64,000 bases of DNA from Acinetobacter colistiniresistens (GTDB lineage: Bacteria; Pseudomonadota; Gammaproteobacteria; Pseudomonadales; Moraxellaceae). A model generated the notes under the pieces. That model was given only the letters and a program-made list of their open reading frames with translations. It did no database searches and was not told the DNA's origin. A program made the position numbers and the translations under genes. The stretch is taken from assembly GCF_024582815.1 (NCBI RefSeq), contig NZ_CP102099.1:1178001-1242000 (forward strand). The letters are read 5' to 3'. Each line of letters begins with the position of its first letter. Within the stretch, counting starts at the first letter, position 1. Shown one piece after another: positions 33,394 to 56,871 of this stretch.

Positions 33394-33444
33394 ATTGATA
33401 TGTTATAACATAATTTCAATATAAAACAACAAGATGAAATAATA

Positions 33445-33473
33445 CTGTCATCAAGGTGACATAAAAGGGTCAC
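33445..33473 (+). promoter_or_regulatory. Putative PhoB box upstream of the alkaline phosphatases
   Basis: Three 7-mers spaced exactly 11 bp apart: CTGTCAT, GTGACAT and GGGTCAC, with CAAG and AAAA spacers. The PhoB consensus is CTGTCAT with 4-bp AT-rich spacers. The first copy is a perfect match and the others match at five of seven positions. The box ends 62 bp before the ATG at 33536. Confidence 0.65.
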
Positions 33474-33535: not shown

Positions 33536-35128
33536 ATGTTCTTATCAAAGATGAGCTTTTCCAAAAAGCTCTTGGCGGTCAGTTTAATGACAGTACTGTC
33601 AGCTGGCATGACTGCATGTAACGACAGTGATAAAAACGACAAAACGGAAGTACCTACAACACCAAAAGCTAAAAATGTGATTTTCTTTTTGGGTGATGGT
33701 ATGGGAATTACTACTTTAACGGCATCACGAATTTATTCTGTTGGGGAAGATGGTGATTTGACCATTGATACACTGCCAGAAACTGCTTTTGTACGCACTT
33801 TTTCGGAAGATGGTCAGGTGACTGATAGCGCGCCGTCTATGGCGGCTTATATGACTGGCGTGAAAATGAAAAATGAAGTCATTTCCATGCAGACCGGAAC
33901 GATCGCATCTGCACCAAAAGCAGATGGAACCAGTACCTGTGATGATGTTGCAGAGAATAAAGGCAAAAAACCTGTTGAAACCTTACTCGAACTTGCCAAA
34001 GCGCAGGGGATGGGTACAGGTGTCGTGACTACCACGCGTATTACCCATGCAACGCCAGCCACAACCTATGCCCATGTTTGCCATCGTGATGCAGAGAATG
34101 ATATTGCGGCACAGCTTGTTCCCGCAGGTAAAGGGACCGGATGGGGCGCTTATAACAGCAAGCTTAAAGATGGTGTAGATGTAGTGTTAGGTGGTGGTTT
34201 ACGTCAGTTTAAACCGACGACTGTTGCAGGCGGTAAACGTGCTGACGGCCGAGACCTAGTAAAAGAAATGCAAGATCAAGGTTATAACTTTGTTTCAAGT
34301 GGTACTGACCTTGCAAAAATTGATCCAAGCAAAACTAAAAAATTATTGGGTCTCTTTAATGCCAGCCATATGAATTATGACTTGGATCGTACTAATAAGA
34401 AGATTGATGAACCTAGCTTAGCGGATATGACTACCAAGGCGATTGATGTCCTACAGGCAAAAAACAAAAGTTTCTTCTTGATGGTTGAGGGTGGCCGTAT
34501 TGACCATGCACTACATGACACCAATGCAAAACGTGCGTTGCAGGATACGGTTGCTTTTGACAATGCGATTAAGGCAGCGATTGATAAAATTAAACTGACC
34601 GATCCAGAGCTCAAAAATACCTTGATCGTGGTGACTGCTGACCATGACCATACCATGGTCTTGAATGGTTATGCGAAGCGTACAGGTAAATATGTAAAAG
34701 GTGCTGAGACCAGTGTCTTGGGCCTAGTGAAGAACTATAACAAAGCGGGATTCTCAACCGATGTCAACGGCAATCCATATCCGATCATTGGCTTTGGTAC
34801 AGGTAAAAAACGTTTAGATAATGACCGTATTGAAGCGCGTGGTGTTTTAGCTGATAACGATAGTTGTAATCCAGCTGCAGGCCCAGCAGGTAAATATACC
34901 GATAGCCGTGGGACGGATATTGATAAAGAGGGTTGGTGTACGGGTACAGCTTCAGATGATTTCCAGCAAGAAGCAGTGGTGCAGACTGGTTTCGCTGATA
35001 GTGAAACGCACGGCGGTACCGATGTATTCCTTGGCGCGATTGGTGTGGGGTCAGACAACTTCCACGGCAGTCTAGAGAATATCGAAGTATTTAATTTAGT
35101 TCGCAAAGCCATTGGCCTAGATAAATAA
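33536..35128 (+). CDS. Alkaline phosphatase, probable lipoprotein (copy 1)
   Basis: A 530-residue PhoA-superfamily phosphomonoesterase. The metal ligand Asp54 lies in FLGDGMG and nucleophile Ser98 in TDSAPSMAAYMTG. VEGGRIDHALHD, TADHDHTM and the late SETHGGTDVFLG supply the remaining zinc and magnesium ligands. The leader ends GMTACNDSDKND, a near-lipobox with Cys28, suggesting an outer-membrane-anchored lipoprotein. It would release phosphate from organic esters in the periplasm. A PhoB-like box lies upstream, and the paralogue at 35143 follows after 14 bp, so the two form an operon. Confidence 0.93.
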   Translation: MFLSKMSFSKKLLAVSLMTVLSAGMTACNDSDKNDKTEVPTTPKAKNVIFFLGDGMGITTLTASRIYSVGEDGDLTIDTLPETAFVRTFSEDGQVTDSAPSMAAYMTGVKMKNEVISMQTGTIASAPKADGTSTCDDVAENKGKKPVETLLELAKAQGMGTGVVTTTRITHATPATTYAHVCHRDAENDIAAQLVPAGKGTGWGAYNSKLKDGVDVVLGGGLRQFKPTTVAGGKRADGRDLVKEMQDQGYNFVSSGTDLAKIDPSKTKKLLGLFNASHMNYDLDRTNKKIDEPSLADMTTKAIDVLQAKNKSFFLMVEGGRIDHALHDTNAKRALQDTVAFDNAIKAAIDKIKLTDPELKNTLIVVTADHDHTMVLNGYAKRTGKYVKGAETSVLGLVKNYNKAGFSTDVNGNPYPIIGFGTGKKRLDNDRIEARGVLADNDSCNPAAGPAGKYTDSRGTDIDKEGWCTGTASDDFQQEAVVQTGFADSETHGGTDVFLGAIGVGSDNFHGSLENIEVFNLVRKAIGLDK

Positions 35129-35142
35129 CAACAGACTGGAGA

Positions 35143-36684
35143 ATGATGATGTTAAAACAATTTAAATTAGGTCAGTTGGGTATGAAAGCATCTGCTTTAA
35201 CTGTTGCACTCTTGGCTGCAAGTACAGGTGTACAGGCGGCGGGCGAAGCTAAAAATATCATTTTCTTTTTAGGTGATGGTATGGGGCCAACTACGGTCAC
35301 GGCAAGCCGTATTTATGGCTATGGTGAATCTGGCAAATTAACCATGGACACCTTGCGCCGTACAGTACGTATCAAGACCTATTCTGAAGATGGTCAAACC
35401 ACAGATAGTGCGCCGTCAATGGCAGCCTATATGACAGGGAAAAAAACCCGTAATGAAGTGATTGGCATGACACCGGGAACTGTTGCTGTTGAGCCAAGCT
35501 CAGGTACGGCACCGGATGGAACGAAAGTGTCGAATGCCGTGAATAACTGCCCAACGCCTGGTTCGAGTGTAGCAGCAGGCAGTCCTGCCGAGACGATTCT
35601 TGAATTGGCCAAGGCCAATGGCAAAAAGGTAGGGGCGATTACCACCACAGAATTAACCCATGCAACCCCAGCTGCAACTTTTGCTCATGTGTGTAACCGT
35701 AATGCGCAATTTGAGATTGCGCGTCAAGTGATTCCTGGTGGTGCAGGATATAACCCTAAACTGCTTGATGGTGTAGATGTGCTCATGGGCGGGGGACGTA
35801 ACCACTTTACCCCATATAACGCGACTGACAATAAAAAGGGTCGTATTGACGGGCGTAATTTGCTGGATGAGCTAAAAGCGAAAAATTATACCGTCGGTGC
35901 AACCAAAGCAGACATGGATGCTGCACCACTGAATAAAAAATATATCGGTCTTTATTCGGCAACTTCACATCTGGAATATGATTTGGATCGCCCTAGAACG
36001 GCACCGAATCAACCAAGTTTGGCTGAAATGACCGCGAAATCGATTGATTTATTGCAGGCACAAGATACCGCAGGCAAAGGCTTCTTCTTGATGGTTGAAG
36101 GTGGACGTATTGACCATGCATTACATGGAACCAATGCCAAACGTGCCTTGCAGGATACTATTGCCTTTGATAATGCGATCAAGACCGCACTGGATAAAAT
36201 CAAGAAAACTGATCCTGAGTTAAAAAATACCTTAATCGTCGTCACGGCTGACCATGACCATACCATGACGTTTAATGGTTATACCGCACGTACTGGCAAA
36301 ACCACGGCGACGAATCCAGGTATCTTGGGTTTAAGCTATAGTTATCAAGAGGCAAAAGCATCAGATACGCGTAGCCGCGTGTTAGAGGATGGCAAGAAAC
36401 ATGCCCCTAACTTTGATGCGAAAGGCAAGACCTCAACCACTTTAGTGTTTGGTAATGGTGGTGGGCCACGTCCAACGTCACGCATCGATATTACGGACAA
36501 TGAGGCAGCAGCCGATGATTATTTACAAGAGGTTGGGGTAAAACTTGGTAGTCCTGGCTCTGAAACACATGGTGGTGGAGATGTCTTATTGTTTGCTGAA
36601 GGTGCAGGTTCACAAGTCTTTAAAGGGACGAGAGAAAATGCATGGGTATTTAGCAAATTAAAAGAAGCATTTGGCTTTAAATAA
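35143..36684 (+). CDS. Alkaline phosphatase, periplasmic (copy 2)
   Basis: A 513-residue paralogue of the preceding enzyme with the same active-site set: FLGDGMG, nucleophile Ser89 in TDSAPS, VEGGRIDHALHG, TADHDHTM and SETHGGGDVLLF. It has a plain Sec signal peptide (about residues 14-33, ending VQAAG) and no lipobox, so it would be soluble. Shared motifs with copy 1 show tandem duplication followed by divergence, above all in the loops at about residues 100-150 and 370-450. ATG codons at 35143, 35146 and 35149 are all possible; CTGGAG best serves the later ones. Confidence 0.93.
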   Translation: MMMLKQFKLGQLGMKASALTVALLAASTGVQAAGEAKNIIFFLGDGMGPTTVTASRIYGYGESGKLTMDTLRRTVRIKTYSEDGQTTDSAPSMAAYMTGKKTRNEVIGMTPGTVAVEPSSGTAPDGTKVSNAVNNCPTPGSSVAAGSPAETILELAKANGKKVGAITTTELTHATPAATFAHVCNRNAQFEIARQVIPGGAGYNPKLLDGVDVLMGGGRNHFTPYNATDNKKGRIDGRNLLDELKAKNYTVGATKADMDAAPLNKKYIGLYSATSHLEYDLDRPRTAPNQPSLAEMTAKSIDLLQAQDTAGKGFFLMVEGGRIDHALHGTNAKRALQDTIAFDNAIKTALDKIKKTDPELKNTLIVVTADHDHTMTFNGYTARTGKTTATNPGILGLSYSYQEAKASDTRSRVLEDGKKHAPNFDAKGKTSTTLVFGNGGGPRPTSRIDITDNEAAADDYLQEVGVKLGSPGSETHGGGDVLLFAEGAGSQVFKGTRENAWVFSKLKEAFGFK

Positions 36685-37643: not shown

Positions 37644-39641
37644 TTATTTCGTTGTTGTAGCTTTCTTTTCTACGGAAGGTGCAATTGGATCTGCAGTAAT
37701 ATAACCCACGGCAGCAGCAAAACGGTCTTTGTAGTTTGCACGGACTAAAGGATCAAGCGTTTTTTGTACTTTGTCGTGTAATGGAGATTCCCAGTCACCC
37801 GGGTGCTGGAAGTTGCTCATGATATAAGTCCAACCATTCACCGCATCTACAGCATGTAGACCTGTTGATTCAGCACCAGCAGGCGTGGATAAGATACGGC
37901 TTAATTGTTTGGTATCGACATGATAAGCCCATAAGAAGTTATTGATGTGCATGCCACTATCTTCACCAATGAAGAGGGTACGTAAATTTTCAGAGAACTT
38001 GATGTTATCTGGGTTGGCAATTTTATCTGCATTGGCAAGGTTACCTAGGGCATCAGCAGTGGCAAGGTCTTCACCAACCAAAGCCGCTGGAGCTTCCATG
38101 TGTACCGAAACCCATTCACTATTAATCAACTGGTTTTTTTGATCAACTTGGCTACCTTTTAAGGTGTGAGCATACACGGCACCTGCTTTCGGACCTTGGA
38201 CTTGGATATCAGTGGTTTTGTCAATCATAGAAGACTGAACATAAGACATTGCAGAATAAGCAATTTTATCCTTAATGTTGACCGTTGTACCTTCCATTTT
38301 GGTAAATCCCATACTTGCACCGACTAACGCTGCATAACGATGGGTTTCAAGGAATGCAGCCTCACGTTCTTTACCTGCAACTAATTTCACCCAGTTATCT
38401 TTGCCACTGAAGCGAATCTTGGTATAGCTTGCATCTTTAGGATCAGCAGTTTTGACATCCATAAGATCAGAAATTTTATATTGATCAGCCCAGCCTTTTA
38501 CTTCATCGCTTGTTGCATGACCAAGATTGATCCAGCTGATATCACCCGCACCTGGGCCTACGCCAGATGTTTGCTTCCATTTAGCAACATAGAGCGTGCC
38601 TGCAGATAAATCTTTTTCTTTATCTGCAACGAACATAAACAAGCCGCCATTGGTTGCATCATCACCCATTAACGCCGTGCGGTTATCTGGCATGACTTGT
38701 ACCAGCTCATGTGAAATACGACCTAAACAGTAATGTTTTTTAATTGAACCCGTACCATCGGTATTAACCGTCACTTCTGGTAAATGACCGTAGTGGTAAG
38801 GATTGCCTGTATTGCTGTCGCCAAATAGGTTTTGACTGAATACAGGTAGATAGCTTGCTGCAACGTTATTTGCATCAGGCTCGTATTCTTCACTCGAAAG
38901 ATGTGTTCCCCATGGCGATAAGCTGGCACCACAAGTAATCCATAAGCCATTGACCTTGGAGGTATCCACATTGTGATATTTCACCAAAGATAAATGACCT
39001 GTTTTAGGGTCTTGATCCAGAGTTAAAATGGCGATGGGGGAAGGTAAAAGACCATACATAGATTTTAGATTTTGATCACGAGTAGTGTATTCAAATTGCA
39101 CCACATGGAAAACAGGATTTCCTGTAACACCTAAGGCTTTCTTATCTGCATCAGTAAAATCTTTACCTGTCGCTTGTTTAAAGCTGATCAACGAACTTCC
39201 ATCTGGACAGTCTGAAAAGAATTGGCGTTCTTGCCCTGCTTTTGATTTATCGATAATCGGTTGGTTATTGATATCAACATAACCTCCAGCAAGAATTTTG
39301 CCGCCTTTGCCATCTGTTACCAAGTCCCCTGTGGTGAAGAATGGCTTATAAGCAAGGGTGTAATCGGTTTTTGAACCATCATCCCAATTGATACTGAGCG
39401 TTGAGGCAACGCTGGTCGTTGCCATTGCGGCAGGGTCAGTTAGATTAGGTGCTGCCATGGGGGTAAATGTTGCATTTTTAAATTTGGCAGCCAGAGGTGC
39501 AGGGGTGGCAGAGTCATTATTGTCATCATTGCAGCCGGTTAAAACGGCGGCGGTACTCATTGCTCCGAGGGGTAAAAAGGGAACGCCTGCGAACCATTTT
39601 AAAATATCACGACGACTTGGCTGATGGGTATTGGCTGTCAT
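37644..39641 (-). CDS. phoX: PhoX-family phosphatase, Tat-exported lipoprotein
   Basis: A 665-residue PhoX (DUF839) alkaline phosphatase, a calcium/iron-dependent beta-propeller enzyme unrelated to PhoA. The N-terminus has a twin-arginine signal SRRDILKWF (residues 9-17) and then LTGC, a canonical lipobox, so it should be exported folded by Tat and lipidated. WITCGASLSPWGTHLSSEEY is the typical PhoX active-site segment. It lies directly downstream of tatABC but is a separate transcription unit with its own four-repeat PhoB-like box. Confidence 0.92.
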   Translation of the reverse strand: MTANTHQPSRRDILKWFAGVPFLPLGAMSTAAVLTGCNDDNNDSATPAPLAAKFKNATFTPMAAPNLTDPAAMATTSVASTLSINWDDGSKTDYTLAYKPFFTTGDLVTDGKGGKILAGGYVDINNQPIIDKSKAGQERQFFSDCPDGSSLISFKQATGKDFTDADKKALGVTGNPVFHVVQFEYTTRDQNLKSMYGLLPSPIAILTLDQDPKTGHLSLVKYHNVDTSKVNGLWITCGASLSPWGTHLSSEEYEPDANNVAASYLPVFSQNLFGDSNTGNPYHYGHLPEVTVNTDGTGSIKKHYCLGRISHELVQVMPDNRTALMGDDATNGGLFMFVADKEKDLSAGTLYVAKWKQTSGVGPGAGDISWINLGHATSDEVKGWADQYKISDLMDVKTADPKDASYTKIRFSGKDNWVKLVAGKEREAAFLETHRYAALVGASMGFTKMEGTTVNIKDKIAYSAMSYVQSSMIDKTTDIQVQGPKAGAVYAHTLKGSQVDQKNQLINSEWVSVHMEAPAALVGEDLATADALGNLANADKIANPDNIKFSENLRTLFIGEDSGMHINNFLWAYHVDTKQLSRILSTPAGAESTGLHAVDAVNGWTYIMSNFQHPGDWESPLHDKVQKTLDPLVRANYKDRFAAAVGYITADPIAPSVEKKATTTK

Positions 39642-39699: not shown

Positions 39700-39739
39700 G
39701 ATGACATTTTTTGACAGTTTTAATGCAATTTTAAGACAG
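39700..39739 (-). promoter_or_regulatory. Putative PhoB box upstream of phoX
   Basis: Read on the minus strand, four 7-mers at a strict 11-bp period: CTGTCTT, TTGCATT, CTGTCAA and TGTCATC, each separated by AAAA. A TAGAAT -10 hexamer starts 9 bp downstream, where PhoB-activated promoters place it. Confidence 0.75.
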
Positions 39740-39775: not shown

Positions 39776-39803
39776 ATAAAAAATCCCTGAGGTTTTTCAG
39801 GGA
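39776..39803 (-). terminator. Terminator after tatC
   Basis: TCCCTGA and TCAGGGA form a stem with a T-rich tail on the minus strand. It separates the tat operon from phoX. Confidence 0.8.
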
Positions 39804-39817
39804 GCTGTAGCCAGTTT

Positions 39818-40582
39818 TCAGTCAGTTACTTTTCTTTTTTCCAGTATTTTTCCGAACAGTAAACCCAGTTCAAACAACATCCACATAGGGACTGCCAGCA
39901 TAATCATCGACAAGGCATCGGGTGGCGTGACAAACATGGCCAAAAAGAAACAGCCCACAATAATGAAGCGGCGTTTTTCAACCAGACTCTGGGTGCTCAC
40001 CACACCAATTAAAATCAGGACGAGGGTAATAATCGGGATTTCAAAGGTAAAGCCAAACACCAAAAACAGCTTTAAACAGAAGCTTAAATAACTATTGATG
40101 TCAGTCATCGGTGCTACAGTTTCAGGGGAAACACTAATAAAGAAATGTAGAATTGCAGGCAGTGTAATAAAATAAGCAAATGCCACGCCTAAATAGAACA
40201 GCACAATACTGCCGAATAAGAGCGGAATGGCCAGATGACGTTCTTTTTCATACAGTGCAGGTTTGATGAAAGACCAGATCTGATAAATGATATAGGGCAT
40301 TGCCAGCATAAATGCGACGAATAGATTCAGCTTAAACGGTGCCATAAATGTAGCAGTGACATCGGTTGCAATCATGGTTGATGTTGCGGGTAACTGCTGT
40401 CTTAACGGTTCAGAGAGCCATTGATAAGTGGTATTTCTAAATGGCAATAAGCAGAAAAAAAGAAGAATCGTTACCCCAACAATCTTAAACAGATATTGTC
40501 GCAGCACAATTAAATGCTGCATCACCGGCATTTGTTGCAGGGATTCTTCAGTACTGGCTGAGGTTGATGGTAATTGGCTCAT
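39818..40582 (-). CDS. tatC: Sec-independent translocase subunit TatC
   Basis: A 254-residue six-helix inner-membrane protein that recognises twin-arginine signals and nucleates the Tat complex. The N-terminal MPVMQHLIVLRQYLFKIVGV corresponds to the conserved H-L-x-E-L-R region, with HLIVLR here, lacking the usual Glu. LNLFVAFMLAMPYIIYQIWS and the FTFEIPIITLVLILIGVV helix are typical. It overlaps tatB by 4 bp, indicating translational coupling. Confidence 0.94.
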   Translation of the reverse strand: MSQLPSTSASTEESLQQMPVMQHLIVLRQYLFKIVGVTILLFFCLLPFRNTTYQWLSEPLRQQLPATSTMIATDVTATFMAPFKLNLFVAFMLAMPYIIYQIWSFIKPALYEKERHLAIPLLFGSIVLFYLGVAFAYFITLPAILHFFISVSPETVAPMTDINSYLSFCLKLFLVFGFTFEIPIITLVLILIGVVSTQSLVEKRRFIIVGCFFLAMFVTPPDALSMIMLAVPMWMLFELGLLFGKILEKRKVTD

Positions 40583-41016
40583 ACGGCAATCTTTAATTCT
40601 GTAGCAAACTTTGGTGCCGATAAGGGCAACTCAAGCTTATGAGGTAAATACTTTTGATAGCTAATACTAAACGGTACAATATGTTGCGTTGAACAAGGGC
40701 TATAAGTCACGGGTGACTGAGTCTTGGTTTCTGCAACTTCTGTCTCTGATGTTGGTGTACCTTTTAGCGCATCAAGTTGTTGTTGCATCCTGCGTTCGAG
40801 CTCAGTAATTTTATCAATTTCTTTTTGCATTTCTTCACGGAACTCAGAAAGGCGGAGTTCTCGATCAATTTCGTTCTGAATGTTGTTGATAAATTTTTTA
40901 ATTTTTCCATACCATTTTGCTACGAACCGTGCAGCTTCTGGTAATTTATCCGGGCCAAGCACCAGCAATGCAATCACTGCAAAGCAAAAGATCTCGGTCA
41001 TTCCCAAATTCAGCAT
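40579..41016 (-). CDS. tatB: Sec-independent translocase subunit TatB
   Basis: A 145-residue protein with one N-terminal transmembrane helix (MTEIFCFAVIALLVLGPDKLPEAA), where the LGP motif distinguishes TatB from TatA. An amphipathic helix and a charged, partly coiled C-terminus follow. It pairs with TatC in the signal receptor. It starts 12 bp after tatA. The C-terminal third (about residues 105-145) is unusually rich in Pro, Ser and Tyr and ends outside the typical acidic pattern. Confidence 0.92.
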   Translation of the reverse strand: MLNLGMTEIFCFAVIALLVLGPDKLPEAARFVAKWYGKIKKFINNIQNEIDRELRLSEFREEMQKEIDKITELERRMQQQLDALKGTPTSETEVAETKTQSPVTYSPCSTQHIVPFSISYQKYLPHKLELPLSAPKFATELKIAV

Positions 41017-41028
41017 AGTCGTGCTCGC

Positions 41029-41244
41029 TTAGCCTTTTACTGAGTTTTCAGTATTTTTAACTTGAGCATCAATGGTGCGAGGTTCATTTAAAGGAGCAGT
41101 TGTTTCTTCTTCTTTCATGGACTTTTTGAAGTCTTTTACTGCACCACCCACATCTTTACCCAAGTTTTTAAGCTTCGATGTACCAAAAAGTAAAATCACG
41201 ACAATTGCAAAAATCAGTACATGCCAAATTGATAAGCCAGCCAT
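41029..41244 (-). CDS. tatA: Sec-independent translocase subunit TatA
   Basis: A 71-residue pore-forming Tat subunit with one transmembrane helix ([16 protein letters not shown]) and the FG hinge, then amphipathic [20 protein letters not shown] and an acidic tail. It is the first gene of tatABC. TAGGAATAGAAG precedes the ATG. A four-repeat PhoB-like box lies 44 bp upstream, unusual for a gene set normally treated as constitutive. Confidence 0.95.
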
Positions 41245-41287
41245 TCTTCTATTCCTATAAAACTTTGCTATATCTCAACAGTTGGGC

Positions 41288-41327
41288 ATGACAAAGATGT
41301 GACACTTGTATTGCAGTTTTAAGACAA
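41288..41327 (-). promoter_or_regulatory. Putative PhoB box upstream of tatABC
   Basis: On the minus strand four 7-mers with an exact 11-bp period: TTGTCTT, CTGCAAT, GTGTCAC and TTGTCAT, with AT-rich 4-bp spacers (AAAA, ACAA, ATCT). Its layout matches the phoX box. A TATAGC-like -10 lies about 15 bp downstream. Confidence 0.65.
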
Positions 41328-41396: not shown

Positions 41397-42284
41397 ATGA
41401 CTTTTATCCTCCCAATAGGTGCCTTGTTTTTCGGGTTTTTGATCGCTCAATTCAAAGTCTCAGAACAGACCAAAAAAATCTTGTCTGCTTTATTGGCGCG
41501 GTTATTTATTCCTGTCGTGATTATTTACAATATGGTGTTCTATCAGGCAGGTAGCTTTGCACTTATTCTATTTAGTTTCATTTCATCGATCTTGCTGTTT
41601 TACTTATTTGCGTATTTCTCTAAAGACCGTTTGCAGGCACTTTGTTTGAGTTATAGCAATATTGGTTGGCTTGGTTTTCCATTCGCCATAGCCTTATTTG
41701 GCGAGCAAGTCAGTGCAGCGATGATTGCACTGTATATTGGCGGATCTTTATTTGGCAATATTTGGGCGGTGACTGCCGTTTCAAAAGAATCATCAAACGC
41801 CTCTATGATTTTCCAGAAAGTTTTAAAATCACCGCCAGTCTTGGCCTTGTTGGCAGCATTGATTTTATGGCTATGTGGTATTCAACGTTTACAGGGGAAT
41901 CTTGTTCTAGAAGGGCTGTATGATGTTGCCAAATTTGGGATGAGCTTTGCGGGCATGTGTATTTTAGGGATGTGGCTCCGATATACACGGGTACATCGGG
42001 CTGACTTATGGCTCAGTACGCGCACACTGATGCTGAAATTATTGTGTGGTCTGGTTATTTGTAGCGTGACTTATTATTGCATTGAGATTCCACAGATTAA
42101 CTTCTTGATACCTGTGCTGTTCCTTTTATTTTGTCTGCCGCCTGCCGCTAATATTGTTGCTTTGGAAACGCATTACCAAGGTACAGGCATTTCAGCCCGT
42201 TATATTGCTGCAGGAACTATCGTAAGCTGTGTGGTGATTGTGATCTATGGTCTATTGCTGCATATAAAAAGTGCCCTCATATAG
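41397..42284 (+). CDS. AEC-family (auxin efflux carrier-like) transporter
   Basis: A 295-residue protein with about ten transmembrane helices of the AEC family, related to malate and other carboxylate permeases. ILSALLARLFIPVVIIYNMV (about residues 28-47) and SYSNIGWLGFPFAIALFGEQ (about 86-105) carry the conserved Pro and N-x-G-x-x-G positions of the two crossover regions. The substrate is unknown. It is divergent from tatA, so the PhoB-like box at 41288 lies between them and could act on both. Confidence 0.85.
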   Translation: MTFILPIGALFFGFLIAQFKVSEQTKKILSALLARLFIPVVIIYNMVFYQAGSFALILFSFISSILLFYLFAYFSKDRLQALCLSYSNIGWLGFPFAIALFGEQVSAAMIALYIGGSLFGNIWAVTAVSKESSNASMIFQKVLKSPPVLALLAALILWLCGIQRLQGNLVLEGLYDVAKFGMSFAGMCILGMWLRYTRVHRADLWLSTRTLMLKLLCGLVICSVTYYCIEIPQINFLIPVLFLLFCLPPAANIVALETHYQGTGISARYIAAGTIVSCVVIVIYGLLLHIKSALI

Positions 42285-56265: not shown

Positions 56266-56871
56266 ATGTATGTTCCAACAATTGAAAATGCTTTAGTTCC
56301 TGTTGTCGTTGAACAATCCTCTCGTGGTGAGCGTTCATTTGATATTTATTCACGTCTATTACGTGAGCGTGTTATTTTTCTAACGGGTGAAGTTGAAGAT
56401 AACATGGCGAACTTAATCGTTGCGCAGATGTTATTCTTAGAAGCAGAAAATCCAGAAAAAGATATCCATCTCTATATTAACTCACCGGGTGGTTCTGTGA
56501 CTGCGGGTATGGCGATTTATGACACCATGCAGTTTATCAAACCTGATGTTGTAACTTATTGCATGGGACAAGCAGCATCAATGGGTGCATTCTTATTGAA
56601 TGCAGGTGCAAAAGGCAAACGTTACTGTCTGGAAAATGCACGTGTCATGATTCACCAGCCACTTGGTGGTTTCCGTGGTCAGGCGTCTGATATTGAAATT
56701 CACGCACGTGAAATTCTGTTTATCAAAGAGCGTTTAAATCGTTTGATGGCTGAACACAGTGGCCAAGATTATGAAACGGTTGCACGTGACACAGATCGTG
56801 ACAATTTTATGACTGCTCAAGCAGCCAAAGAATATGGTTTAGTTGACCAGGTACTAAGCAAACGTCCGTAA
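56266..56871 (+). CDS. clpP: ATP-dependent Clp protease proteolytic subunit
   Basis: A 201-residue serine protease subunit forming the 14-mer ClpP chamber. Catalytic Ser105 lies in [11 protein letters not shown] and His130 in [10 protein letters not shown]; the Asp is in the [10 protein letters not shown] region. [20 protein letters not shown] is the conserved substrate-binding part. A possible promoter (TTGATT, 17 bp, CATAGA) lies at 56204-56232. clpX follows after 41 bp. Confidence 0.97.

Follow-up and report, generated by a model that had tools for sequence, protein, structure and literature searches.

Tat is usually regarded as a housekeeping pathway, and a phosphate-starvation box in front of its genes would therefore be unexpected. 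In the stretch of Acinetobacter colistiniresistens DNA studied here (the window, 64 kb; C1:1178001-1242000 of a 3.89-Mb genome), an initial annotation proposed such a box upstream of tatA. The question is whether the translocase itself belongs to the Pho regulon. In our opinion it is very probable, judging from the sequence, that a 40-bp element upstream of tatA is a PhoB binding site placing tatABC in the Acinetobacter Pho regulon.

The features of the locus are listed in Table 1. The next gene downstream of tatC is phoX. With a terminator-like hairpin just behind tatC, tatABC and phoX appear to be transcribed separately, and phoX has its own predicted box, so the sequence does not place cargo and translocase in one unit. 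Terminator-like sites numbered three in the region versus 1.6 in shuffled sequences.

Table 1. Features of the tat-phoX region (positions in the window)
Feature	Position	Strand	Remarks
Pho box (predicted) before the PhoA pair	33434-33473	plus	site found with the E. coli matrix
Two PhoA-type alkaline phosphatase genes	33536-35128, 35143-36684	plus	PF00245
phoX	37644-39641	minus	PhoX-family phosphatase, PF05787; twin-arginine signal SRRDILKWF
Pho box of phoX (predicted)	39700-39739	minus	spacing 11, 11, 10
Intrinsic-terminator-like hairpin and T run	39784-39803	minus	just 3' of tatC; consensus match
tatC	39818-40582	minus	254 aa, PF00902; sole TatC found in this genome, 98% identical to the TatC of A. 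colistiniresistens
tatB	40579-41016	minus	145 aa, PF02416
tatA	41029-41244	minus	71 aa, PF02416
Extended -10-like element TGTTGAGATA	41271-41280	minus	conserved, five positions at 0.99; putative -10 role
Pho box of tatABC (predicted)	41288-41327	minus	four direct 7-mers, period 11
Repeats of the tatA box	41321-41327, 41310-41316, 41299-41305, 41288-41294	minus	four 7-mers
Divergent membrane-protein-like gene	41397-42284	plus	no Pfam match; shares the intergenic region with tatA

The repeats read TTGTCTT, CTGCAAT, GTGTCAC and TTGTCAT (5' to 3' on the coding strand of tatA) and are separated by AAAA, ACAA and ATCT; the last one ends 43 bp before the ATG. Direct reading agreed with the initial annotation as to the four 7-mers, their strict 11-bp period, their strand and the AT-rich spacers (A+T 4/4, 3/4, and 3/4). 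With a half-site matrix, the four-repeat score before tatA was 21.4 at period 11, and the best scores at the other periods from 7 to 15 were -19.2 to -3.1. PhoB boxes are built in this way, from direct 7-bp repeats close to CTGTCAT and AT-rich 4-bp spacers. The second repeat, CTGCAAT, departs from the E. coli consensus CTGTCAT, and the phoX box has a similar second repeat. Two details of the annotation had to be corrected. The interval 41244-41327 given for the element includes the leader to the start codon in addition to the box itself, and the geometry, described as matching that of the phoX box, is similar but not identical, the spacing before phoX being 11, 11, 10.

An IUPAC pattern, useful in tracing the Pho regulon of this genome, had been written when the tatA and phoX boxes were already known and is circular for tatA, so a PhoB matrix from E. 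coli was used instead. It was built from sixteen 18-mers of eight E. coli K-12 Pho promoters (phoA, phoB, pstS, ugpB, phoE, phnC, psiE, and phoH) and contains no Acinetobacter sequence. These promoters are PhoB-dependent in E. coli. The tatA box reached 25.3, the top four-repeat score of the 64-kb window, followed by the phoA box (13.8) and the phoX box (10.2, ungapped matrix). Maximum scores in 20 simulated Markov-1 windows were 3.9-14.2. In the weight-matrix scoring suggested in the initial annotation, the site hence exceeds chance expectation when the matrix derives from known PhoB promoters. As a control, 2,000 random 300-bp stretches of tat loci were scored with the true sites kept; 95% of the best scores were at or below 1.4 and 99% at or below 18.4. 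Among the E. coli promoters, all of them training sequences, the four-repeat score was 40.6 for pstS, 24.2 for ugpB, 13.8 for phoB, 8.1 for phoA, and 1.3 for phoE; the low values of the last two mark it as an imperfect detector. The tatA box falls just above ugpB and below pstS and resembles the E. coli PhoB promoters in its direct 7-bp repeats with 4-bp spacers; unlike at pstS, ugpB, phoA, and phoB, the target here is the general Tat translocase, and repeat 2 is CTGCAAT. E. coli K-12 tatABC, with the same three genes in the same order, has no PhoB-like site upstream (-16.4).

When single 18-mers were ranked, the tatA site (14.7) was only third in the window after position 56798 (17.9) and the phoA box (15.7); therefore, it is the four-repeat array and not one pair of repeats that stands out. 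The top 18-mer (56798-56815, minus strand) is located near the end of a coding region. It was set aside as a Pho box owing to this intragenic position; intragenic PhoB sites have been described in E. coli (available part of PMC10294691).

Conservation was assessed on the tatA upstream regions of 60 Acinetobacter genomes, taken in handle order from G001 to G067 to avoid a bias toward the closest relatives (four handles without TatC were skipped, and three multi-copy handles were treated separately; the species overlap with the 80-locus set below). An in-register box was present in 58 of the 60. Its score was 7.4-33.4, and its position relative to the tatA start was -82 to -94. The comparison across the genus proposed in the initial annotation thus found the 11-bp repeats kept. 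The two genomes without a box, G005 (-7.6) and G059 (-1.0), are sisters in a PhoB-PhoR tree. Among the 55 non-redundant sequences of the boxed genomes, mean pairwise identity was highest for the repeats (0.78), followed by the downstream stretch (0.58), the spacers (0.55), and the 60 bp upstream (0.29). Mean information per position was 1.14 bits within the box, 0.82 bits over the 28 bp that follow it, and 0.10 bits over the 60 bp that precede it. We also examined 80 loci of relatives, 78 of which contain tatA. When all positions on both strands of these 78 were ranked, the tatA-upstream site was first in 66 and second in seven, and in the remaining five it ranked 5th, 11th, 59th, 169th, and 339th. 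The A. baylyi locus (L014) carries the box with a score of 28.6. By sequence criteria, promoter position apart, the element is a predicted PhoB site.

In two loci without a tatA box, L069 and L073 (A. rongchengensis and A. piscicola), PhoX still lies beside tatC. The gap before PhoX scores low there too (5.9 and 5.1), and for this reason the tat and PhoX units may have left PhoB control together.

Some genomes carry more than one tat copy. In all seven for which every listed copy was retrieved (G014, G026, G036, G068, G075, G080, and G085), exactly one copy had the box, and it was the one beside PhoX. The matrix scan found no box in any of 13 extra copies (best score 0.7), which include one each from G079 and G096 without the main copy in the same scan; the tatA start was placed roughly in five of them (L206, L216, and L222-L224), and 300 bp upstream were scanned. 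For other Moraxellaceae, 20 regions were taken and one at a contig end (L236) was dropped, leaving 19 from 10 genera, three of them with a rough tatA start and 300 bp scanned upstream (L225, L235, and L241). No box was found in 16 of the 19 (scores from -16.7 to 3.7). The other three scored 14.7-18.8 and all belong to genus g10. Within the sampled genera, which leave out g3, g4, g6, and g15, the predicted box is a feature of Acinetobacter and g10.

Conservation downstream of the box is concentrated in CTGTTGANATA. The conserved TGTTGANAT lies 8-16 bp downstream of the box, and its hexamer TGAGAT begins 10 bp past the last repeat, the same spacing as between the E. coli phoA box and its TATAGT. 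The hexamer is non-consensus: the usual -10 consensus has A at position 2, which is missing here, and a generic sigma-70 scan gave no promoter at the tatA site.

The regulator and its other predicted targets are present in the same genome. PhoB scored 335.3 bits, above the cut-off, and a PhoR-type kinase (PF11808) adjoins phoB; the site upstream of phoB (17.9) is the best of 1.5 kb. Further matrix sites precede genes for a PhoD-type phosphatase (36.1), a porin (35.7), PstS (20.3), a glycosyltransferase (18.3), and a choice-of-anchor I protein (10.7). One more lies at the start of a PHO4-type transporter (9.0), inside the longest reading frame, in which the Pfam domain does not start before residue 111. 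Pattern and matrix also found such sites before PhoX and the PhoA pair. The PhoD-type product carries the motif SRRELIQK. Given their boxes and twin-arginine motifs, PhoX and PhoD are therefore predicted members of the Pho regulon along with their translocase.

The initial annotation saw the tat box as serving PhoX. The phosphatase is indeed next door; it is not the only candidate cargo, since PhoD and three other products have twin-arginine starts, namely a phosphoesterase (PF04185), which we take to be phospholipase C-like, and two solute-binding proteins (PF00496). The site of the phosphoesterase gene is moderate (11.9), and the one solute-binding gene of the two that was scored has no PhoB-type site (-9.5); it is therefore likely that Tat also exports some proteins that do not belong to the Pho regulon. 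A Tat-signal family scan missed phoX and PhoD, so it undercounts the cargo.

A large open reading frame lies within 1.2 kb of tatC in 69 of the 80 relatives' loci, and in every one of the 69 a twin-arginine motif occurs within the N-terminal 75 residues; these frames were called PhoX by place, start, and PF05787 matches next to tatC, and not by a scan of each. Two of the 11 loci without such a frame are at a contig edge, and two are extra copies. PhoX after tatC is of two types, both with twin-arginine starts, one of approximately 660 aa with a weak PF05787 match and one of approximately 740 aa with a strong match, a pattern that an in situ replacement of one type by the other would produce. 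The label "phoX-less" for loci without a homologue of the PhoX of the window was abandoned because most of them have the second, distant type.

Tat and PhoX are retained or lost jointly in Acinetobacter. Among 120 genomes, TatC was found in 112 and PhoX (PF05787) in 111, and all eight TatC-less genomes were also without PhoX. In G090, no PhoX was found, and TatC was represented by two divergent genes alone (46 and 44% identity); with this genome counted as Tat-less, presence and absence agreed in 120 of 120. The PhoX-less genomes fall in seven places of the PhoB-PhoR tree, a number of losses that is approximate, given a single FastTree run with a midpoint root and most supports unexamined. The tree comprised 41 genomes, all nine PhoX-less ones and 32 of the other 111. 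G015, G051, and G088 form one clade; G025, G103, G046, G090, G094, and G073 are separate. G025 stands beside the tat-positive G095 and G103 beside the tat-positive G031, and G094 and G073 are the deepest branches. In a family sample that has some genomes in common with this set, PhoX was found in 42 of 49 Acinetobacter genomes, and the seven others were six TatC-less ones and G090. Outside the genus the tie is loose: in other Moraxellaceae, TatC was found in 98 and PhoX in 74 of 100 genomes (a few matches being weak), and at least 24 of the 26 PhoX-less genomes retain Tat.

A usual housekeeping Tat cargo is the bc1 Rieske protein. It was detected (TIGR01416) in 92 of 149 Moraxellaceae genomes. 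The search found none in 49 Acinetobacter, four g10, and one g8 genomes, and positives made up 92 of the remaining 95. Three genera had no Rieske match at all, among them the two that carry the box. The third, g8, represented by one genome (G126), has Tat and PhoX, no Rieske match, and no tatA box, and is an exception to any strict coupling of the box with loss of Rieske. One g10 genome, G140, gave no match to TatC, PhoX, or Rieske. Because Tat and PhoX are kept or lost jointly and no bc1 Rieske was found in the genus, the translocase looks like a Pho-regulon tool in Acinetobacter. Growth of A. baumannii without tatABC was like that of the wild type (available part of PMC12687288), which is consistent with Tat being dispensable. 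Evenly balanced, in our estimate, is the further proposal that Acinetobacter Tat has been captured by the Pho regulon and is in essence an export arm for PhoX-type enzymes: loss of Rieske would have freed Tat, gain of the box and adjacency to phoX would have followed, and Tat would have been discarded with PhoX in several lineages. The co-loss pattern renders this idea of capture testable.

The best reading of these data is that PhoB activates tatABC so that export capacity would rise together with the Tat-dependent phosphatases. It starts from direct observations: the element matches an independent matrix and is conserved at a nearly constant distance from tatA, the genome encodes PhoB and PhoR, predicted boxes precede PhoX and PhoD, and Tat is retained jointly with PhoX. 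At low phosphate, PhoR would phosphorylate PhoB, dimers of which would bind the four 11-bp repeats head to tail. PhoB would then bring RNA polymerase to the extended -10-like element, 10 bp farther downstream, and TatABC would increase. In parallel, PhoB would induce phoX from its own box and other twin-arginine phosphatases, such as PhoD. Folded in the cytoplasm, PhoX and PhoD would need extra Tat capacity to reach the periplasm. We infer here the binding of PhoB and activation by it, the start site, the Tat dependence of the cargo, and Tat as the limiting step.

In B. subtilis, the phoD-tatAd-tatCd module is regulated by PhoP and lacks TatB. The module is induced by phosphate starvation (available part of PMC3068169), and there, as here, translocase genes adjoin a twin-arginine phosphatase; in Acinetobacter the induction is predicted. 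The differences, for B. subtilis again from that part of PMC3068169, are that phoD is upstream of tatAd-tatCd whereas tatABC precedes phoX, and that B. subtilis has a second, constitutive TatAyCy whereas the Tat of this locus, with one TatC in the genome, is the only one found. Also unlike the Bacillus module, tatABC ends in a terminator-like hairpin, and tatABC and phoX each have their own PhoB-type box. The two arrangements would be convergent. A phosphate-starvation box on the translocase was presented in the initial annotation as a new regulatory link; the mechanism is known in kind from Bacillus and so is not wholly new, but the lineage, the gene set, and the separate boxes differ.

Searches of the open-licence literature, a body that excludes most subscription papers, turned up neither a description of a Pho box upstream of tat in Acinetobacter nor any PhoB-binding or phoB-mutant data on tat. 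A whole-word search of a Pho regulon review (PMC4415409) gave zero occurrences of Tat and tatA. As a precedent, "TatADG" of P. putida BIRD-1, reportedly lost in a PHO mutant, was considered and rejected: in the available part of the report (PMC5082522), tatA and tatG are annotated as general secretion pathway proteins K and G, so that they appear to be type II secretion genes named differently. In Acinetobacter, a box comparable to that of tatA is known for A. baumannii olsB, the product of which makes aminolipids: a predicted Pho box matching the E. coli consensus, phosphate-dependent expression, and PhoR dependence of the aminolipids and olsB are reported in PMC11828411, the available part of which does not mention a Pho box on tat. 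The same part states that Tat-dependent export genes rose in low-phosphate RNA-seq of A. baumannii, in a sentence that does not name tatA, tatB, or tatC.

If PhoB control of tatABC is real, the box would be a direct cis-element behind this published rise. A Gram-negative genus with hospital pathogens would run its only or main Tat as a phosphate-scavenging tool, a general translocase turned into a near-dedicated one after loss of its housekeeping cargo, in parallel to Bacillus. Tat phenotypes of Acinetobacter, for example, adhesion, might then vary with the phosphate state of the medium.

Several other explanations of the element were weighed. The best of them overlaps with ours and is not exclusive of it: PhoB would bind the box and modulate a tat promoter driven mainly by growth rate or another signal. 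We find it possible but rather unlikely as the main account. Its principal support is that tatA, tatB, and tatC were 4.4-9.6-fold higher in the exponential than in the stationary phase in A. baumannii ABC141 grown in LB (available part of PMC12687288). Tat is therefore on in rich medium, and either it responds to more than severe starvation or PhoB is active in fast growth. According to the same part of PMC12687288, a SignalP search for Tat signals in ABC141 "did not yield significant candidates"; together with the growth-phase data, this sits uneasily with a pure starvation switch. In contrast to that result, PhoX and PhoD in the present genome, which is of another species, have plain twin-arginine starts. 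Deletion of tatABC in ABC141 also changed adhesion (PMC12687288, same part), which suggests other cargo. The two twin-arginine solute-binding proteins are not phosphatases, and a certain amount of Tat is therefore probably required when phosphate is not short. Against a promoter of this kind, the four repeats are kept in nearly all species while the 60 bp further upstream are unconserved, so that no second conserved operator is visible there, and the usual Tat is missing wherever PhoX is missing.

A quite improbable alternative is that not PhoB but a different OmpR/PhoB-type regulator uses the repeats as its operator. As many as 12 response regulators of this genome span nearly the whole PhoB model, and the second repeat deviates from the E. 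coli consensus in a way also seen in the phoX box. Only one of the 12, however, passes the PhoB cut-off, and a protein above this curated cut-off is encoded in 120 of 120 Acinetobacter genomes. The matrix that recovers the site comes from E. coli PhoB promoters alone, and the same type of site precedes pstS, PhoX, PhoA, and PhoD.

The box could also belong to the divergent gene at 41397, with which tatA shares an intergenic region of 152 bp, but this is more doubtful still. The distance to tatA is nearly fixed in the 58 boxed genomes, the -10-like element is on the tatA side, and the 60 bp on the other side are unconserved. The divergent gene adjoins tatA in 63 of 78 loci. Among the 15 loci in which it does not, 11 keep the box; the four exceptions comprise two extra tat copies (L034 and L060) and the pair of sisters without a box, L069 and L073.

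A fortuitous match in an AT-rich region, for which one could cite the 18-mer of 17.9 inside the coding region at 56798 and the pattern matches inside other reading frames, is practically refuted already by the genus-wide conservation, and the four-repeat score is far above those of simulated windows with the other periods negative. The IUPAC pattern gave 25 matches in this genome at up to two mismatches versus two with a reversed control, and 10 of the 25 lie within open reading frames without an evident phosphate link. Two of the 25 are overlapping plasmid repeats (L087/L088; G000 contig C2, 3907-3955). These are 22-bp direct repeats beside a Rep3 gene on a 10-kb contig, probably replication iterons, and mimic a Pho box.
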